Source of the DNA: an uncultured Ruminococcus sp.
GTDB taxonomy: Bacteria; Bacillota; Clostridia; Oscillospirales; Acutalibacteraceae
Direction of reading: 5' to 3'
Assembly: GCA_902765625.1 (NCBI GenBank)
Contig: CACXAO010000017.1
Location: 1 to 46,697 of the forward strand
DNA: 46,697 nucleotides
A program made the position numbers and the translations under genes. Numbering within the stretch: the first letter of the stretch is position 1; every line of letters starts with the position of its first letter. This document shows positions 21,038 through 32,382 of the stretch, piece by piece. Below the pieces are notes generated by a model, which worked only from the letters and a program-made list of their open reading frames with translations, was not told the DNA's origin and searched no databases.

Positions 21038-22051
21038 ATGTTTTCATTTGCAAAGGACGTCGGGATCGACCTCGGCACGGCAAACACCCTCGTCTGTATG
21101 CGCGGACGCGGAATAATCCTGCGCGAGCCGTCGGTAGTGGCTGTCGATTCGCACGACGGCGCTGTGCTCGCCGTGGGCACTCCCGCGCGCGAGATGATAG
21201 GCAGAACTCCGTCGAACGTCGAGGCGCTCAGACCGCTCAAGGACGGTGTTATCGCGGACTTCGAGGTCACTGCCAAGATGCTGCAGCACTTTTTGCGCAA
21301 GGCGGTAAAAACAGGCCTTTTCGCGAAACCGAGGGTAGTCATCTGCCTGCCTACGGGCGTAACGGAGGTGGAGCGCAAGGCGGTTGAGGACGCGGCGTAT
21401 CAGGCAGGCGCAAAGCCGCCCGTCACGCTCATCGAGGAACCGATGGCGGCGGCAATGGGCGCAGGTCTGCCCGTAGACGAGCCTATCGGCAGCATGGTGG
21501 CGGACATAGGCGGCGGAACAAGCGAGGTCGCGGTTATCTCGCTGGGCGGCATCGTGTCGTCGTGCTCGGTGAGGGTCGGCGGCGACTGTCTGGACGAGGC
21601 GATAATCCGCCACGTAAAGCAGAGCTACAGCCTGCTTATCGGCGAGCGCACCGCCGAGGATGTTAAAATACAAATCGGCTCGGCGTTTCCGCTCAACGAG
21701 AACGAGGAGATGGCGGTCAAGGGCAGAAGCCTTTCGGACGGGCTGCCAAAGGACGTGACCCTGACCGCCGACGAGGTGCGCGGCGCGCTTTCGCCGCAGC
21801 TCGAAAAGATAATCGAGGCGATAAAAACAACCCTCGAAAAGACTCCGCCGGAGCTTTCGGCAGACATAATCGACCACGGGATAACGCTCACGGGCGGCGG
21901 CGCGCTGCTCAGGGGAATCGACATGCTCGTGGCGCAGCAGACGGGACTGACGGTGCACGTCGCGCAGAATCCGCTCGACTGCGTTGCCGACGGAGCCGGA
22001 AAACGGCTTGGCAAGAGCCGCACAAACGGCGCTAGGCGCTTTGCCCGATGA
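21038..22051 (+). CDS. mreB: rod-shape protein MreB (actin-like)
   Basis: A 337-residue bacterial actin that polymerises under the membrane and guides wall synthesis. Actin-fold nucleotide motifs are visible: phosphate 1 in GIDLGTANTLV, phosphate 2 in VADIGGGTSEVAVIS near residue 155, and the adenosine motif LTGGGALLRGID near residue 285. Length is normal. The ribosome site AAGGGGATG lies a few bases upstream. It begins the mreB-mreC-mreD-PBP2 operon and overlaps mreC by 4 bp (ATGA). The C-terminus (ARRFAR) is short and basic. Confidence 0.96.
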   Translation: MFSFAKDVGIDLGTANTLVCMRGRGIILREPSVVAVDSHDGAVLAVGTPAREMIGRTPSNVEALRPLKDGVIADFEVTAKMLQHFLRKAVKTGLFAKPRVVICLPTGVTEVERKAVEDAAYQAGAKPPVTLIEEPMAAAMGAGLPVDEPIGSMVADIGGGTSEVAVISLGGIVSSCSVRVGGDCLDEAIIRHVKQSYSLLIGERTAEDVKIQIGSAFPLNENEEMAVKGRSLSDGLPKDVTLTADEVRGALSPQLEKIIEAIKTTLEKTPPELSADIIDHGITLTGGGALLRGIDMLVAQQTGLTVHVAQNPLDCVADGAGKRLGKSRTNGARRFAR

Positions 22052-22857
22052 AAAGCCGCCGCAAAAACAGAAAAGCTCTGCTGCTCACACTCATCGCGGT
22101 GCTGCTGATGGGTGTTTTGTCCGTGGGCGACAACTCGCCGCTGAGAACCGCCCTGAGCGCTCTGACGGGAGGGATATTCAGTCTGACGGCAAAGGCGGCG
22201 TCAGGACTCAGCGAGCCGTCGGCAGAGGAGCTTGCAGAGGAAAACGAGCGGCTGAAATCCGAGAACGCCTCGCTGCAAAAAGCCCTTGCCGAAAACCTCG
22301 AGCTTCGCGGAGAAAACAAAACTCTCTGGAGCTATTTCGGTCTGAAAAAGAGCGCGCCCGGGCTTGAGCTGGTGCCGGCGTTTGTTCTGCGCCGCGCGGC
22401 GACCGACGACTTCGGCGGCTTCACTCTGGGCGCAGGCTCAGACCTCGGGGTCAAGACAAACGACGCGGTGATCTGCGAGAGCGGTCTTGTCGGACGGGTC
22501 GTGGCGGTGGACGGCTCGGCATGCCGCGTCGCCACGATTCTCTCGCCCGGCTCAAGGGTCGCGGTGACCGACGGCGAAAGCTCCGACAGCGGAATCCTGA
22601 CAAGCAGAGACGGCAATCCCGCAATTACCCAGCTGCCCGAAAAGCACAACATAAAAACAGGCGACCTGATACTCACCTCGGGCGAGGGCGGCATCTACCC
22701 TCCCGGGATAATCGCCGGCACGGTGAGCGAGCTGAAAACCGACCCGTACGACTCGTCTGTTTACGCGGTGGTTGAGCCTGCCGCGGACTTTGAGGAGCTG
22801 AGCGAAGCGGCGGTGGTCGTCGCCTTCTCCGCGAAAGGAGTGACCAAGGCTGAATAG
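22048..22857 (+). CDS. mreC: rod-shape protein MreC
   Basis: A 269-residue bitopic membrane protein that links MreB filaments to the wall-synthesis enzymes. A basic N-terminus (KSRRKNRK) precedes one membrane segment (about 10-27). A coiled coil of about 60 residues follows (SAEELAEENERLKSENASL). The extracytoplasmic double beta-barrel then shows GLVGRVVAVDG and LTSGEGGIYPPGI. It starts inside the mreB stop (ATGA) and its end overlaps the mreD start, which indicates translational coupling. Confidence 0.94.
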   Translation: MKSRRKNRKALLLTLIAVLLMGVLSVGDNSPLRTALSALTGGIFSLTAKAASGLSEPSAEELAEENERLKSENASLQKALAENLELRGENKTLWSYFGLKKSAPGLELVPAFVLRRAATDDFGGFTLGAGSDLGVKTNDAVICESGLVGRVVAVDGSACRVATILSPGSRVAVTDGESSDSGILTSRDGNPAITQLPEKHNIKTGDLILTSGEGGIYPPGIIAGTVSELKTDPYDSSVYAVVEPAADFEELSEAAVVVAFSAKGVTKAE

Positions 22858-23323
22858 GCGAATTTTGCGCGCGGCGCTCATATCCTCGGAGCTGTTCGCG
22901 CTGTACATTCTCGAAAACACGCCGCAGCTCTCGCTGAATCCCGGCGGCGCAAAGCCGCTTTTTCTCGTTGCGGCGGCGATCTCGCTCACGTCGGACGAGG
23001 TGATCCCGGCGACGGTCTACGGAGCGGTATGCGGCGCGCTGACCGACCTCGAATCGGGCTCGGTCGGCTTTTTCGCGGTCGGGCTGACCCTGCTCTGCTA
23101 TTTTCAGTCAAGCCTGCTGCACACGAGCTTCAAGCGCAATCTGCCGTCGCTGTGGCTGCTCTCGCTCGGTTCGGCGGCGGTGATTTTCGGCGCGGATTTT
23201 CTGACAAGGCTGATTTTCGGCGGCGTTATCTGGCAGCGGTGCCTTATCAGGGCGGCGCTCACGTACCTGTGCGTCCTGCCGCTGTCGGCGGTAAATTTTC
23301 GGAGGAATAACGATGAAGAATAA
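22850..23323 (+). CDS. mreD: rod-shape protein MreD
   Basis: A small polytopic membrane protein (about 157 residues, roughly five hydrophobic helices) that completes the MreBCD complex. No ATG or GTG is available in frame. The ribosome site AAAGGAG (22834-22840) is spaced 9 bases from a CTG at 22850, giving the natural N-terminus MNRRILRAAL with basic residues before the first helix. A TTG at 22865 is the alternative and would drop the NRRI residues. Position between mreC and PBP2 and the hydrophobic profile support the call more than sequence motifs do, since MreD is poorly conserved. It overlaps PBP2 by 11 bp. Confidence 0.85.
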   Translation: MNRRILRAALISSELFALYILENTPQLSLNPGGAKPLFLVAAAISLTSDEVIPATVYGAVCGALTDLESGSVGFFAVGLTLLCYFQSSLLHTSFKRNLPSLWLLSLGSAAVIFGADFLTRLIFGGVIWQRCLIRAALTYLCVLPLSAVNFRRNNDEE

Positions 23324-25154
23324 GGCGCACACGGTCTGCATAATTATAATGTCGCTGATTTTTGCGGCGTTCGCGGCACGGCTTGCGGACTGGCAGCTCA
23401 TCCACGGCGAGGAATACCGAAGGCTCGCGGCGCGCGCGGACTCCGTCACCGTCACCACCGAGGCGGTGCGCGGCGAGATCATTGACAGAAACGGCGACGG
23501 CTTGGTTACAAACACCGCCTGCAAAAGAATCGTTCTCGAAAAATCAAAGCTCGGCGACGACCTGATTCTCGCGCTTATCGGGATTATCGAAAGCTGCGGC
23601 GACAAGTGGGCGGACGACCTGCCCGACGATTCCGAAGCCTGCATAAACAAACTCAAAAGCGAGTACCGCATTCCGGACGGCTACACCTCAAAGCAGCTGC
23701 GGCAGCTCGTTTCGGTTCACTTCGGCATGAACCAATCAGACGGCGATTTTTACACCCTCGCAAACGACGTAAGCGGCAAATGCGTGAGCGCGGTGAGCGA
23801 ACAGACTCAGGGTATCGACGGCGTTGAGGTGCAGACCTACCACGTACGCGCTGCGGTGCAGCCGAGCCTTGCGCCGCATATTCTCGGCTCGGTGGGCGCG
23901 ATTTCAGCCGAGGAGTACGACGCGCTCTCTGACAAAAACTACAAGCTGACCGACAGCATCGGCAAGTTCGGCATAGAAGCGGCTCTCGAGGACGAGCTTC
24001 GCGGAAAAAGCGGCAGGCGGATAATCTCGGGCAATTCGGATCCCGACGGCAGCTCTGAGGCGCGCCGCGGCAACACCGTACAACTGACCCTCGACAGCAG
24101 GCTTCAAAAAACCGCGGCGGACTCCCTCGCCGAAAACATCAAAGCTGCCAAAGCCGCCGGCGCGGACGACTGCGAATCGGGAGCCGCCGTCATGCTCGAT
24201 ATAAGCGACTTCTCGGTTCTGGCGGCGGCGAGCTGTCCGACCTACGACCTCAACCGCTACTCAAGCGACGGCGACTACTACATGAGCCTTGCCGAGAACG
24301 AAGCTGCGCCTATGTTCAACCGCGCGTGCTCGGGCAGCTTTGCGTGCGGCTCGGTTTTCAAGCCGTGCGTGGCGCTGGCGGCTCTCGAGGACGGCGTTAT
24401 CACTCCCGAGACCGAAATCTACTGCGCGCGCTGCTACGACTACTACCCCTCGAACGTCGTCGCCTGCATGCACTACCACGGAAACGAGAATCTTTTCACG
24501 GCGCTTGCGCACTCCTGCAACGTGTTTTTCGCTGAAACGGGCAGGCGGCTGGGCATCAAAAAGATGTCCGCGCTCGCCGAAAAGGCAGGCTTGGGCGAAT
24601 ACACGGGCATCGAAATCGAGGAGAGCCGGGGAGTTCTCGCCGGGCGCGACAGCGAAGAATGGACGGACGGCAACACGGTTCAGGCGGCAATCGGTCAGTC
24701 GGACAACGCGTTCACACCCGTGCAGCTCGCGACCTACACGGCGACCCTCGCGAACGGCGGCAGGCGGCTGAAAACCCACCTCGTCAGGCAAATCACCGAC
24801 TACAGCCGAACCGAAATAATCTACGAAGCAAAGCCCGAGACCGTGAGCGACCTCGGGGTGAAGCAGGAGTACCTCGACGACGTAAAAAAGGCGATGCTCG
24901 CGGTCACGGCAGACCCCGAAGGTACCGCCTACAGCGAATTTTACGACTATCCCGTCAAGGTCGGCGCAAAGACGGGCACCGCCGAAAACGCCGGAAGCGA
25001 CCACGCGGCGTTCATCTGCTTTGCGCCTTTTGAAAAGCCCGAGGTCGCGGTCTCGGTGATAATCGAGCACGGCGCGAACACAAAATTCGCCATGCGCACG
25101 GCAAAGGATATGCTCAGCGCATATTTTGAAAATTCACCCAAAACTAATAACTAA
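23313..25154 (+). CDS. penicillin-binding protein 2 (elongation transpeptidase)
   Basis: A 613-residue class B PBP that cross-links peptidoglycan during elongation. One N-terminal membrane anchor (about 7-25) is followed by the dimerisation/pedestal domain starting near VRGEIIDRNG. The transpeptidase has S347-xx-K350 in CGSVFKP, the SxN motif S401-C-N403, and K553-TGT. A cysteine-rich stretch CARCYDYY with another cysteine at about residue 385 lies between the first two motifs. The ribosome site CGGAGGA is good. The C-terminal residues KTNN and the stop are written by a short run of 7-bp ACTAATA units, so the end of the gene appears to be modified by the heptad repeat. It closes the mre operon. 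Confidence 0.94.
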   Translation: MKNKAHTVCIIIMSLIFAAFAARLADWQLIHGEEYRRLAARADSVTVTTEAVRGEIIDRNGDGLVTNTACKRIVLEKSKLGDDLILALIGIIESCGDKWADDLPDDSEACINKLKSEYRIPDGYTSKQLRQLVSVHFGMNQSDGDFYTLANDVSGKCVSAVSEQTQGIDGVEVQTYHVRAAVQPSLAPHILGSVGAISAEEYDALSDKNYKLTDSIGKFGIEAALEDELRGKSGRRIISGNSDPDGSSEARRGNTVQLTLDSRLQKTAADSLAENIKAAKAAGADDCESGAAVMLDISDFSVLAAASCPTYDLNRYSSDGDYYMSLAENEAAPMFNRACSGSFACGSVFKPCVALAALEDGVITPETEIYCARCYDYYPSNVVACMHYHGNENLFTALAHSCNVFFAETGRRLGIKKMSALAEKAGLGEYTGIEIEESRGVLAGRDSEEWTDGNTVQAAIGQSDNAFTPVQLATYTATLANGGRRLKTHLVRQITDYSRTEIIYEAKPETVSDLGVKQEYLDDVKKAMLAVTADPEGTAYSEFYDYPVKVGAKTGTAENAGSDHAAFICFAPFEKPEVAVSVIIEHGANTKFAMRTAKDMLSAYFENSPKTNN

Positions 25155-26035: not shown

Positions 26036-26089
26036 TTTTATGATTTAGATAATTTGAGATAATTCTGTAGTGTTTGGAGGATTTTGGAT

Positions 26090-26485
26090 ATGAATATTGC
26101 GCTTATCGCTCACGATGAAAAGAAAGAATTAATGGTGCAGTTCTGCATCGCGTACTGCGGCACGCTCAGCCGCAACAACCTTTGCGCCACCGGCACAACG
26201 GGTAAAATGGTATCCGAAGCAACCGGCCTGTCGATCCAAAAGTTCCTCGCCGGCTCTCAGGGAGGCAGCCAGCAGATCGCCGCGCGCATCGCGTGCAACG
26301 AGGTCGATATGCTCCTCTTCTTCCGCGATCCGCTCAGCCCCAAGCCCAACGAGCCTAACGATATGAATATGCTCAGACTCTGCGATATGCACAACGTGCC
26401 CGTCGCAACCAATATCGCCACCGCCGAGGTGCTTATCCACGGCCTTGAGCGCGGCGATCTCGACTGGAGAAACATCCTCAAGTAA
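26090..26485 (+). CDS. mgsA: methylglyoxal synthase homologue lacking catalytic residues
   Basis: A 131-residue protein of the MgsA fold. Family members convert dihydroxyacetone phosphate to methylglyoxal and phosphate. It aligns with the E. coli enzyme (recalled sequence) without gaps at a constant offset of 11. The substrate-phosphate motifs are kept: IAHDEKK (H8, D9, K12) and CATGTTGK (T34-T37). D80 in FFRDPL is also kept. However, the catalytic base D71 is S60 (GGSQQ instead of GGDQQ), H98 is N87 and D101 is N90. Normal catalysis is therefore unlikely. The ATG at 26090 follows GGAGG by 9 bases. Position after minD is the usual place of mgsA in Clostridia, so this is the orthologue, not a paralogue from elsewhere. 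Confidence 0.88.
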   Translation: MNIALIAHDEKKELMVQFCIAYCGTLSRNNLCATGTTGKMVSEATGLSIQKFLAGSQGGSQQIAARIACNEVDMLLFFRDPLSPKPNEPNDMNMLRLCDMHNVPVATNIATAEVLIHGLERGDLDWRNILK

Positions 26486-26648: not shown

Positions 26649-27944
26649 ATGGCATTAATCACGAAGAAAATCAAGGGCACCGAGGACGTGCTGCCCCGTC
26701 AGAGCTACCGCTGGCAGTTCATCGAGGGCGTCATGCGCGAGGAGGCGAAGGCATACGGCTTCAAGGAGATCCGCACGCCTGTCTTTGAGCACACAGAGCT
26801 CTTCGCGCGCGGCGTGGGTCAGACGACCGACGTCGTTCAGAAGGAGATGTACACCTTCGACACAAAGGGCGGCGAGAGCGTTACCCTGCGTCCCGAAGGT
26901 ACCGCGGGCGCGGCGAGAGCGGTGCTTGAGCACAACCTCGAAAACGAGGGTCTGCCGATAAAGGCGAGCTACTTCGTTTCCTGCTACCGCTACGAGAAGC
27001 CGCAGGCAGGCAGACTCAGAGAGTTCCACCAGTTCGGTCTTGAGGAGTACGGCACGCAGTCTCCCGTTGCCGACGCGGAGCTTATCTGCGCGGCGCAGTC
27101 GATTCTCGACAGACTCGGTCTTGACAAGGTAAGGCTTGAGATAAACTCCATCGGCTGTCCCGAATGCCGCGCAAAGTACAATCAGGCGCTGCGCGACTAC
27201 TTCGGCGGCTACCGCGGGCAGCTCTGCACCACCTGCCTGAGCCGTCTTGAGAAGAATCCCATGCGTCTGCTCGACTGCAAAAGTCCCGAGGACAAGGCAA
27301 TCGCAAAGGACGCTCCCAAAATCACCGACTACCTCTGCGAGGAGTGCGAGGCGCACTTTGCTGAGGTTCAGAAATATCTCGGCTGCGCAGGCGTTGAATA
27401 CACCGTCAACCCCACAATCGTGCGCGGTCTCGACTACTACACCAAGACCGTCTTTGAGTTCGTCACCGACTGCATAGGCGCACAGGGCACCGTCTGCGGC
27501 GGCGGCAGATACGACGGACTTATGGAGGAGCTCGGCGGAAAGCACACTCCGTCGCTCGGCTTCGCGATGGGACTTGAGCGCCTGATGATGGTCATGGACG
27601 CTCAGGGAATCGAGATCCCCGACACAAGCTCCTGCGCTCTCTACATCGCCACGATGGGCGACGAAGCAAAGGCTAAGGCGTTTGAGCTGCTCAAGCGCGT
27701 CCGCGAGTGCGGTCTGACCGCCGAGACCGACGTTGTAGGCAGAGGTCTCCGCGCCCAGATGAAGTATGCCGACAAGATCGGCGCGCGTTACTCGATGGTG
27801 CTCGGCGACAACGAGATCGCCGAAAACAAGGCTAAGGTCAAGAACATGGAGAGCGGCGAGCAAACAGAGCTTGCGCTCGACGAAAGCTTTGCCGAGAAAT
27901 TCTCGGTGCTGCAATTGGCAAGCGACAAGGCGTTTGGAATTTAA
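26649..27944 (+). CDS. hisS: histidyl-tRNA synthetase
   Basis: Class II synthetase that charges tRNA-His; 431 residues, typical length. Visible features are KIKGTEDVLPRQ at the N-terminus, motif 1 (FKEIRTPVFEHTELF), motif 2 (YRYEKPQAGRLREFHQFG), the HisA signature RGLDYYTKTVFEF near residue 258, motif 3 (LGFAMGLERLMM) and a C-terminal anticodon-binding domain. The ATG at 26649 follows TGGAGG; an upstream in-frame opening at 26583 lacks a site. aspS follows 36 bp downstream, the usual hisS-aspS pair of Firmicutes. Confidence 0.97.
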   Translation: MALITKKIKGTEDVLPRQSYRWQFIEGVMREEAKAYGFKEIRTPVFEHTELFARGVGQTTDVVQKEMYTFDTKGGESVTLRPEGTAGAARAVLEHNLENEGLPIKASYFVSCYRYEKPQAGRLREFHQFGLEEYGTQSPVADAELICAAQSILDRLGLDKVRLEINSIGCPECRAKYNQALRDYFGGYRGQLCTTCLSRLEKNPMRLLDCKSPEDKAIAKDAPKITDYLCEECEAHFAEVQKYLGCAGVEYTVNPTIVRGLDYYTKTVFEFVTDCIGAQGTVCGGGRYDGLMEELGGKHTPSLGFAMGLERLMMVMDAQGIEIPDTSSCALYIATMGDEAKAKAFELLKRVRECGLTAETDVVGRGLRAQMKYADKIGARYSMVLGDNEIAENKAKVKNMESGEQTELALDESFAEKFSVLQLASDKAFGI

Positions 27945-27980: not shown

Positions 27981-29750
<1,770 letters not shown>

Positions 29751-30782: not shown

Positions 30783-31024
30783 ACTACCAACTACCAACCA
30801 CCAACTACCAACTACCAACTACCAACTACCAACCACCAACTGTCAACCACCAACTACCAACTACCAACCACCAACTACCAACCACCAACTACCAACCACC
30901 AACCACCAACTACCAACTACCAACTGCCAACTACCAACTGCCAACTACCAACTACCAACTACCAACCACCAACTACCAACCACCAACTACCAACCACCAA
31001 CCACCAACTACCAACTACCAACTA
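30783..31024. repeat. 34-copy heptad tandem array (ACTACCA type)
   Basis: It contains 34 consecutive 7-bp units, almost all ACTACCA or ACCACCA with a few ACTGCCA or ACTGTCA, and no insertion or deletion breaks the register. It begins directly after a TTCACT, the same junction seen at the core-arm border of the family B elements. It ends 10 bp before the -35 box of the ydjI-like promoter. One frame reads through as repeated TTNYQLP, but no gene is supported. Confidence 0.95.
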
Positions 31025-31116: not shown

Positions 31117-32382
31117 ATGGGTATTATCAGAGCTGCCGTAAACGCGGTAACAGGCGCGCTTGCCGATACATGGCTCGAAGTCATTGAATCCTCCCCTATG
31201 GGCAAAAATGACGTTATCGTTCCCGGTCAGGCTGTTGACCAGAGAGGCAGAAGCCAGAACAAAAAGGGCGGCGAAAACCTCGTTTCAAACGGCTCTATTA
31301 TTCATGTTTTAGACAACCAGATGATGATTCTTGTCGACGGCGGCAAGATCGTCGACTATTCGGCTACTCCGGGCTACTTCAAGGTAGAGAACAGCTCTCT
31401 GCCCTCACTCTTTAACGGTCAGCTCAAGGAGAACATCAAGGAGAGCTTCGCCCGTATCAAGTACGCAGGTATCTCCTCAACCTCTCAGCGCGTATTCTTC
31501 ATCAACCTTCAGGAGATCAGAGACCTGCAGTTCGGCACTCAGAATCCCGTTCAGTATTTCGACGAGTTCTACGAGGCAGAGCTTTTCATGCGTCTGCACG
31601 GCACCTTCTCGGTAAAGATCACCGACCCGTTCAAGTTCTACATGGAGGTCATCCCGAAGGAAGTAATCACCAACAACCAGAGCTACGCCTTCAACCGCCA
31701 GAACATGCAGCAGTTCTACGACGAGTTCGTAGCGGCTCTGAGCGCGGCGTTCAACCAGTATTCAGCCGACGGCAACCGCATCAGCCACATCACCTCCAAG
31801 AGCATGGAGATGGCTAAGTACATGCAGAACGTTCTCGACGCCGACTGGACAGAGCTCCGCGGTCTTGAGATCGTCAGAGTCGCAATACAGAATCCCGCTT
31901 ACGACGACGCAAGCCAGAAAATCGTCAACGAGCGCAGCAAGATGGCTTCTCAGGTCAGCTACCTCAAGGACGCTGCAAACCAGCAGGCGTTCATGGCGAA
32001 GTCTGTCGGCGAGGGCATCAGCTCCGCAGGCAAGAACGCAGGCGGCGCGGCAGTAGGCTTCATGGGCATGAACATGGCTCAGAACATGGGCGCAGGCGTA
32101 ATGGGCAGCTATATGCAGAATCCCCAGTACGGTCAGGCTCCCCAGCAGCAGTACGGTCAGGCTCCTCAGCAGCAGTACGGTCAGGCACCCCAGCAGCAGC
32201 CTCCGCAGGCTCCCCAGCAGGGCGGATGGACATGCGAATGCGGCGCTGTAAACAACGGCAAGTTCTGCATGGAGTGCGGCAAACCCAGACCCGAGGCTCC
32301 CAAAAAGCGCTTCTGCACCAACTGCGGCGCAGAGCTGAATCCCAACGCCAAGTTCTGTCCCGAATGCGGCAGCAAGCAGTAA
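31117..32382 (+). CDS. SPFH-family (YdjI-like, 'virion core') protein with zinc ribbons
   Basis: A 421-residue protein related to B. subtilis YdjI. An N-terminal amphipathic stretch (GIIRAAVNAVTGALADTW) is followed by an SPFH/band-7 domain (about 30-260), which assembles into membrane-associated oligomers. A Gly/Ala/Met linker (about 290-330) and a Gln-Pro-rich tract made of three QYGQAPQQ units come next. Two zinc ribbons close the protein: CEC/CMEC and CTNC/CPEC. The ribosome site AAAAGGAG is strong. It is followed by YdjG-like and YdjH-like genes; in B. subtilis these localise YdjI and the stress protein PspA to the membrane. No PspA gene is in this cluster. Confidence 0.85.
   Translation: MGIIRAAVNAVTGALADTWLEVIESSPMGKNDVIVPGQAVDQRGRSQNKKGGENLVSNGSIIHVLDNQMMILVDGGKIVDYSATPGYFKVENSSLPSLFNGQLKENIKESFARIKYAGISSTSQRVFFINLQEIRDLQFGTQNPVQYFDEFYEAELFMRLHGTFSVKITDPFKFYMEVIPKEVITNNQSYAFNRQNMQQFYDEFVAALSAAFNQYSADGNRISHITSKSMEMAKYMQNVLDADWTELRGLEIVRVAIQNPAYDDASQKIVNERSKMASQVSYLKDAANQQAFMAKSVGEGISSAGKNAGGAAVGFMGMNMAQNMGAGVMGSYMQNPQYGQAPQQQYGQAPQQQYGQAPQQQPPQAPQQGGWTCECGAVNNGKFCMECGKPRPEAPKKRFCTNCGAELNPNAKFCPECGSKQ
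32125..32196 (+). repeat. 24-bp tandem repeat inside the ydjI-like gene, three copies
   Basis: Three in-frame 24-bp units beginning CAGTACGGTCAGGC encode QYGQAPQQ three times. The copies differ at only a few third positions, suggesting recent expansion and possible length variation between strains. Confidence 0.9.

Follow-up and report, generated by a model that had tools for sequence, protein, structure and literature searches.

The methylglyoxal synthase (MGS) fold does not serve catalysis alone: carbamoyl phosphate synthetase offers a precedent, its MGS domain being a non-catalytic, effector-binding version of the fold. In the methylglyoxal synthase MgsA (EC 4.2.3.3), D71 is named as the catalytic base in excerpts of PMC7843640, and the roles of H98 and D101 are described in an excerpt of PMC1877815. 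In Bacillus subtilis, Crh is reported to bind and regulate MgsA (PMC12291648, in excerpt) and methylglyoxal synthase to regulate cell elongation (Shin et al. 2017, as cited in an excerpt of PMC10714963). Here we describe an MgsA homologue of 131 residues encoded by an open frame on contig CACXAO010000017.1 (assembly GCA_902765625.1) of an uncultured Ruminococcus sp.; the whole stretch of 46,697 nucleotides analyzed is called the window. By fold and descent the protein is an MgsA; judged by the residues that define catalysis, it would not be a methylglyoxal synthase. It is very strongly conserved in gut bacteria around Ruminococcus bromii, where it probably does a non-catalytic job.

The Escherichia coli reference sequence was identical to PDB chain 1b93 at 152 of 152 positions, and residue numbers such as D71, H98 and D101 refer to it unless the window protein, whose numbers are lower by 11, is named. 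As an earlier note on this DNA had claimed, the two proteins align without gaps and with a constant offset of 11 residues; the alignment with B. subtilis MgsA (6f2c) is also gapless (140 bits, E-value: 4.3e-40). The window protein exceeds the cut-offs of Pfam MGS (42.6 bits, cut-off 24.1) and NF003559 (148.1, cut-off 84) and falls slightly below that of TIGR00160 (146.6, cut-off 146.9), and the fold spans its entire chain. All three replacements that the note had listed were seen in the alignment: the catalytic base D71 is S60, H98 is N87 and D101 is N90. The phosphate-binding residues H8, D9, K12, T34, G35, T36 and T37 are kept, again as noted before, together with G55; what had been missed is that S65 of the phosphate site is A54 in the window protein.

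Three-letter codes are used below for the letters at D71, H98 and D101, DHD being the intact state. Residues were read in 112 loci, 111 of which had a usable MGS protein. With the window excluded, 22 loci showed at least 91% identity, 20 of them S/N/N and two G/N/N; slightly below 91% came DHN, DNN, DSN and one further S/N/N. Because S/N/N is also found in the isolates R. bromii 5AMG (L042) and YE282 (L045) and in Ruminococcus sp. FMBCY1 (L039), whose genome is complete, it is due neither to chance nor to sequencing error. Conservation among Ruminococcus relatives, which the earlier note had proposed to check, is present among the near ones, and the substitutions are shared in a clade without decay, not confined to one sequence with other signs of it. 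Five genomes of the same genus carry SNN (G259), GNN (G318), DNN (G185 and G363) and DHN (G074), a series that suggests stepwise loss in the window's lineage, D101 going first, H98 second and D71 last; other orders of loss are found elsewhere in the family (SHD, AHD).

Of 398 family genomes, 386 hold a relative. In the genomes of R. bromii 5AMG, YE282 and FMBCY1, a family search matched this gene and one MGS domain within a frame some 1360 residues long, presumably CarB; in the window's own genome the MGS matches were this gene and one in a 642-residue frame. A canonical methylglyoxal synthase was thus not found in the three R. bromii-group genomes or in the window's genome (88.9% complete). 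For the three R. bromii-group genomes, which show no second stand-alone copy, we rejected the idea that the protein regulates an intact MgsA of the same cell as its subunit. Such a role may apply among the 46 family genomes picked for having more than one match, in which the extra matches of G140 and G118 were fragments and some second copies held a stop.

The MGS gene of the window's clade is under very strong purifying selection. The ratio of nonsynonymous to synonymous substitution rates (dN/dS), taken as a pairwise median (Nei-Gojobori, pairs with dS of 0.05-1.5, dS near 1.2; pair sets differ by gene), was 0.026 for MGS in the S/G-N-N clade with the window, 0.051 for MreB, 0.063 for AspS, 0.087 for MinD, 0.104 for HisS, 0.191 for PBP2 and, from one pair, 0.276 for MreC. 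When the same locus pairs were compared, MGS was more identical than MreB in 76 of 78, MinD in 230 of 231, PBP2 in 120 of 120, HisS in 171 of 171 and AspS in 105 of 105. Its divergence relative to these neighbors was lower in the window's clade than in family members that keep D71 (HisS 0.19 vs 0.35; AspS 0.33 vs 0.37; MreB 0.31 vs 0.47; MinD 0.20 vs 0.24).

Catalytic loss is repeated across Clostridia, a spread that the earlier note missed. Copies were drawn from the family, order and class, and 279 of 308 were left after removal of identical aligned proteins; the set is biased, with 80 loci chosen as nearest to the query and the order and class loci selected from lists. MinD lies on the same strand of the fetched stretch in 221 of the 279 copies, 30 of them DHD (both counts include L239, a second copy with a MinD-like match downstream that is probably not linked). 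Only PBP2, MreC or HisS stands beside 13 copies (3 DHD), and 45 copies have no such neighbors (39 DHD). Four of the 45 (L166, L172, L173 and L180) come from short stretches and have MinE about 1.2 kb away in their genomes, with RodA adjoining the MGS gene in L166; for this reason we take the unlinked count as 41, of which 35 are intact. The six altered unlinked copies (L222, L252, L253, L288, L297 and L305) look like relocated members of the linked lineage, since all of them carry at least four of its five tail residues. L305 (3645-6909), an A/V/V copy, is flanked by pyruvate kinase and by an EIIC gene of the phosphotransferase system (PTS), glycolytic surroundings in which a sensor would make sense. 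Two of the altered copies, L252 (V/D/N) and L253 (M/S/F), come from genome G609, where an EPSP-synthase-family gene and a SpoIIP gene are their neighbors; the MinD-linked copy of that genome (L251) is D/Y/D.

Within the draws from the order and the class, 8 of 72 linked copies of the order outside the window's family are intact and 38 lack D71; in the class outside the order, 24 of 51 are intact and 17 lack D71. At least one copy without D71 occurs in 27 of 50 family codes (three f1 rows merged). At the level of the phylum, 28 new loci, the best-matching ones, included four within the class, and the other 24 were DHD without exception (24/24). Among the 234 linked copies there are 80 different letter combinations at the three catalytic positions: D71 is replaced by S, E, A, G, I, N, F, L, T, V or H, and H98 by sixteen other letters. 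On a tree of 189 representatives (three catalytic columns left out, quick search, short gene; change counts are rough), changes between intact and lost numbered at least 23 for D71, 30 for H98 and 21 for D101. Ranked by changes over the tree among the 40 positions that are at least 94% conserved in 55 DHD proteins, H98 comes first, D71 second and D101 fifth, although their loss is partly given by definition because the division into DHD and lost copies uses these positions. S65, L93, P100, L105, G46 and T47 drift as well, and P115, Q73, N119, D84, T48, G70, A117 and K23 are nearly unchanging. Ten genomes carry both a linked and an intact unlinked copy; in 41 of the 45 pairs among them, identity is higher between the linked copies than between the intact unlinked ones.

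Most of the phosphate-holding part of the pocket has been retained. H19, D20, K23, T45-T48, G66 and D91 are kept without exception in the 25 S/G-N-N loci close to the window (the window itself accounts for two), and position S65 holds A in 20 of them and S in five. In the 87 linked copies without D71, K23 is kept in 84, T45 in 83, T48 in 85, G66 in 78, D91 in 82 and D20 in 79, and K23, T45, T48, G66 and D91 are kept jointly in 70; H19 is kept in 67, T47 in 63, G46 in 53 and S65 in 33. Since most phosphate-site residues are retained, binding of a phosphorylated ligand by the window-type protein is likely.

Conserved substitutions in near relatives, a phosphate half of the site that is largely kept and strong selection together make a role that is altered or non-catalytic the best reading of the locus. 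This much of the earlier proposal of a retained site without catalysis stands; triose phosphate as the ligand and a partnership with MinD are conjectural. With slightly better than even confidence, we propose that the MgsA copy of the mre/min cluster has turned into a pseudoenzyme that binds a ligand and is read by another protein. Such a protein would still bind a phosphorylated small molecule (dihydroxyacetone phosphate, a look-alike or phosphate) and would form an MgsA-like oligomer with no turnover; another protein would read whether it is bound or free, so that growth or envelope functions would be informed of the glycolytic state. MinD would simply be the nearest candidate for this partner. 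We put forward more tentatively, as a possibility that we would not bet on, that across a large part of Clostridia the mre/min-cluster MgsA had an older, non-catalytic sensor duty concerning glycolytic phosphometabolites within the growth and envelope machinery, and that synthase activity was shed many times but the sensor was kept. In the order of R. bromii, Min would then have been reduced to a soluble MinD-like ATPase, with the sensor among the most conserved proteins of the cluster.

Several observations weigh against a ligand-binding pseudoenzyme. The drift of S65, G46 and T47 in copies without D71 may mean that phosphate binding has changed. In other families of the order, the divergence of MGS relative to HisS was 0.79 for copies without D71, 0.63 for altered copies that keep D71 and 0.52 for DHD copies (6 pairs), which points to some relaxation after the loss. 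In three other genomes the linked copies were more alike in 0 of 3 pairs, the intact unlinked copies being the closer ones. The structure model of the window protein is a monomer, and the reading posits an oligomer. The exact C-terminal motif RGDxxWR occurs in 34 of 37 intact linked, 186 of 201 altered linked and 2 of 35 unlinked intact copies; we rejected it as the mark of a new interface, since it is also found in many intact copies from other classes.

The neighboring MinD-like protein retains the deviant Walker A motif KGGTGKST and, in alignment, stops shortly past the last conserved motif; its TIGR01968 score (184.2 bits) is below the MinD equivalog cut-off of 212.9. MinC and MinE were each found in 0 of 11 genomes (the window's, 88.9% complete, and ten relatives), with positive controls matched, and over cut-off in 0 of 25 family and order genomes; the lone weak MinC match, in G499, scored 25.9 bits (cut-off 33.2). 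The MinD tail is shorter than 18 residues at 131 of 131 family loci. Tails of at least 18 residues occur at 10 of 61 order loci, where by eye they do not resemble the usual amphipathic helix, at 24 of 24 class loci with MinE and at 14 of 15 class loci without MinE. Tail loss thus goes with the order and not just with the lack of MinE; here the Min module was dismantled. The MinD-like ATPases of the order thus form an observation of their own: no MinC or MinE in the genomes searched and, for the most part, no membrane helix. Across 80 genomes, catalytic residues were intact in 21 and lost in 11 of those with MinE and intact in 11 and lost in 37 of those without (Fisher p = 1.8e-4); loss is commoner without MinE, yet it is present in 11 of the 32 MinE-positive genomes. 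MGS as a replacement for MinC or MinE was rejected, as this association, which ignores shared descent, falls to p = 0.06 outside the order. In Clostridioides difficile, minCDE is reported in an excerpt of PMC12548448 to be essential, possibly through polarity onto rodA. We conclude that the linkage to MinD is best taken as inherited gene order and not as proof of partnership.

Other explanations can be set against these data. An MgsA-like pocket might carry out another reaction on a phosphorylated substrate by way of H19, D20, K23 and D91, as the retention of the last three in most copies without D71 and the strong selection on the gene would allow. Twenty of the 87 copies have nevertheless lost H19, and the many letters at the three catalytic positions argue against one new reaction built on S/N/N; a shared new chemistry should also fix a new pocket residue, and none was seen by eye in the column table. 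We consider a different enzyme unlikely. Less probable still is a slower methylglyoxal synthase that uses another carboxylate or water as base. The E. coli D71N and D101N variants reportedly lose nearly all activity, the window's clade has S or G for D71 and N for D101, and the catalytic positions rank so high in changes among conserved positions. In favor of residual synthesis are the NF003559 score, the DHN members that retain the base and the citation of H98 as accessory and not critical (PMC7843640, in excerpt).

To much the same low degree we credit the idea that the protein serves the MinD-like ATPase as a partner, structural or regulatory, in a Min module that has been reduced. It would fit the same-strand MinD beside 221 of 279 copies, a set chosen in part by closeness to the query and including the probably unlinked L239, as well as the missing MinC and MinE and the missing long tails (0 of 131 family loci). 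The tie to the neighboring ATPase that the earlier note suggested is weakened, however, by a linkage that is old and common to intact enzymes and by a MinD that is far less conserved and evolves much faster than MGS; catalysis is also lost in the 11 MinE-positive genomes, whose MinD has a long tail, and in relocated copies such as the one beside pyruvate kinase. A decaying gene, finally, would account for the missing catalytic residues and for the relaxation in other families of the order, and is scarcely credible: it is rejected for the window's clade by the dN/dS of 0.026 and by an identity above that of every other cluster gene compared, and the near-universal presence of a relative in the family and the lack of an internal stop among the matches listed for the family also argue against it.

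Features around the gene are collected in Table 1; we take the four genes of the upstream group to be mreB, mreC, mreD and PBP2.

Table 1. Coordinates of the window gene, its sites and its neighbors
Feature	Position	Strand	Basis
Presumed mreB-mreC-mreD-PBP2 group, upstream of the MinD-like gene	21038..25154	+	ORFs, order in relatives
MinD-like P-loop ATPase, KGGTGKST, without C-terminal amphipathic helix	25289..26035	+	TIGR01968, alignment, tails
Ribosome binding site GGAGGA	26076..26081	+	8 bases 5' of ATG
MgsA-fold protein without catalytic residues (S60, N87, N90)	26090..26485	+	ORF, profile matches, alignment
Codon of S60 (E. coli D71, catalytic base)	26267..26269	+	Alignment to E. coli MgsA
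Codon of N87 (E. coli H98)	26348..26350	+	Alignment to E. coli MgsA
Codon of N90 (E. coli D101)	26357..26359	+	Alignment to E. coli MgsA
hisS	26649..27944	+	Downstream neighbor in most order loci with enough flank; name via like-ordered Vescimonas region
aspS	27981..29750	+	ORF, order in relatives; name via like-ordered Vescimonas region

Terminator-like sites near the gene are not in excess (4 vs 3.7 in shuffles), and promoter-like sites number 3 vs 1.5 in shuffles; a search of the window at Rfam gathering scores found one tRNA and nothing else. Further downstream, a tandem array of the 7-base unit ACTACCA (30783-31024, 34.6 copies, 88% match) lies between two ORFs and reads as repeated NYQLPTT in one frame, and a 24-base repeat occurs four times at 32125-32220, encoding glutamine- and proline-rich QYGQAPQQ inside the ORF at 31117-32382. 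In Vescimonas fastidiosa (L364, 5139-10121), the order minD-MGS-hisS-aspS is preceded by parA, parB, serS, mscL and rsmG, not by mre genes; the replicon that carries the group measures 861 kb and is filed as a plasmid. The best five of 65 and of 22 records in plasmid and phage collections were large replicons and unannotated fecal contigs.

The V. fastidiosa copy has G at D71, S at H98 and N at D20 (the alignment near D101 is uncertain), and it is annotated as methylglyoxal synthase with a GO term for methylglyoxal biosynthesis. If our reading is true, a gene that is very common in gut Clostridia is being misread as a methylglyoxal synthase. In an excerpt of PMC10101062, a metagenome study, EC 4.2.3.3 reads fall in patients with lower Ruminococcaceae and Faecalibacterium; such a drop could then reflect pseudoenzymes, not methylglyoxal capacity. 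The natural series DHN, DNN, SNN within one genus, with DHD in the wider order, would suit the study of how catalysis is lost while a sequence stays almost fixed. Among the matches listed in a literature search that covered subscription journals thinly, there was no prior description of altered catalytic residues in the MgsA of these bacteria.

All 11 genomes searched have HPr-family proteins, so that a Crh/HPr link is neither favored nor disfavored. With B. subtilis the locus shares the idea of a link between MgsA and growth control, but MgsA there is active and acts through methylglyoxal, whereas the window protein lacks the catalytic residues. Compared with MgsA itself (B. subtilis 6f2c, E. 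coli 1b93), it shares the fold, the gapless alignment, the conserved core residues and the phosphate-site residues K23, T45, T47, T48 and G66, and differs in that D71, H98, D101 and S65 are all replaced. The E. coli mutants H98N and H98Q (1s89 and 1s8a), crystallized with phosphoglycolic acid according to their entry titles, come closer in one respect: H98N is the natural state in the window protein. These mutants keep D71 and D101, however, and the window protein has neither. The MGS-like domain of CarB/CPS1 is the C-terminal part of a large enzyme, whereas the window protein is a free-standing MgsA orthologue, and at 12-18% identity the likeness is one of fold. The window protein may nonetheless work like this effector-binding domain of carbamoyl phosphate synthetase, by analogy of fold and logic and not by membership.
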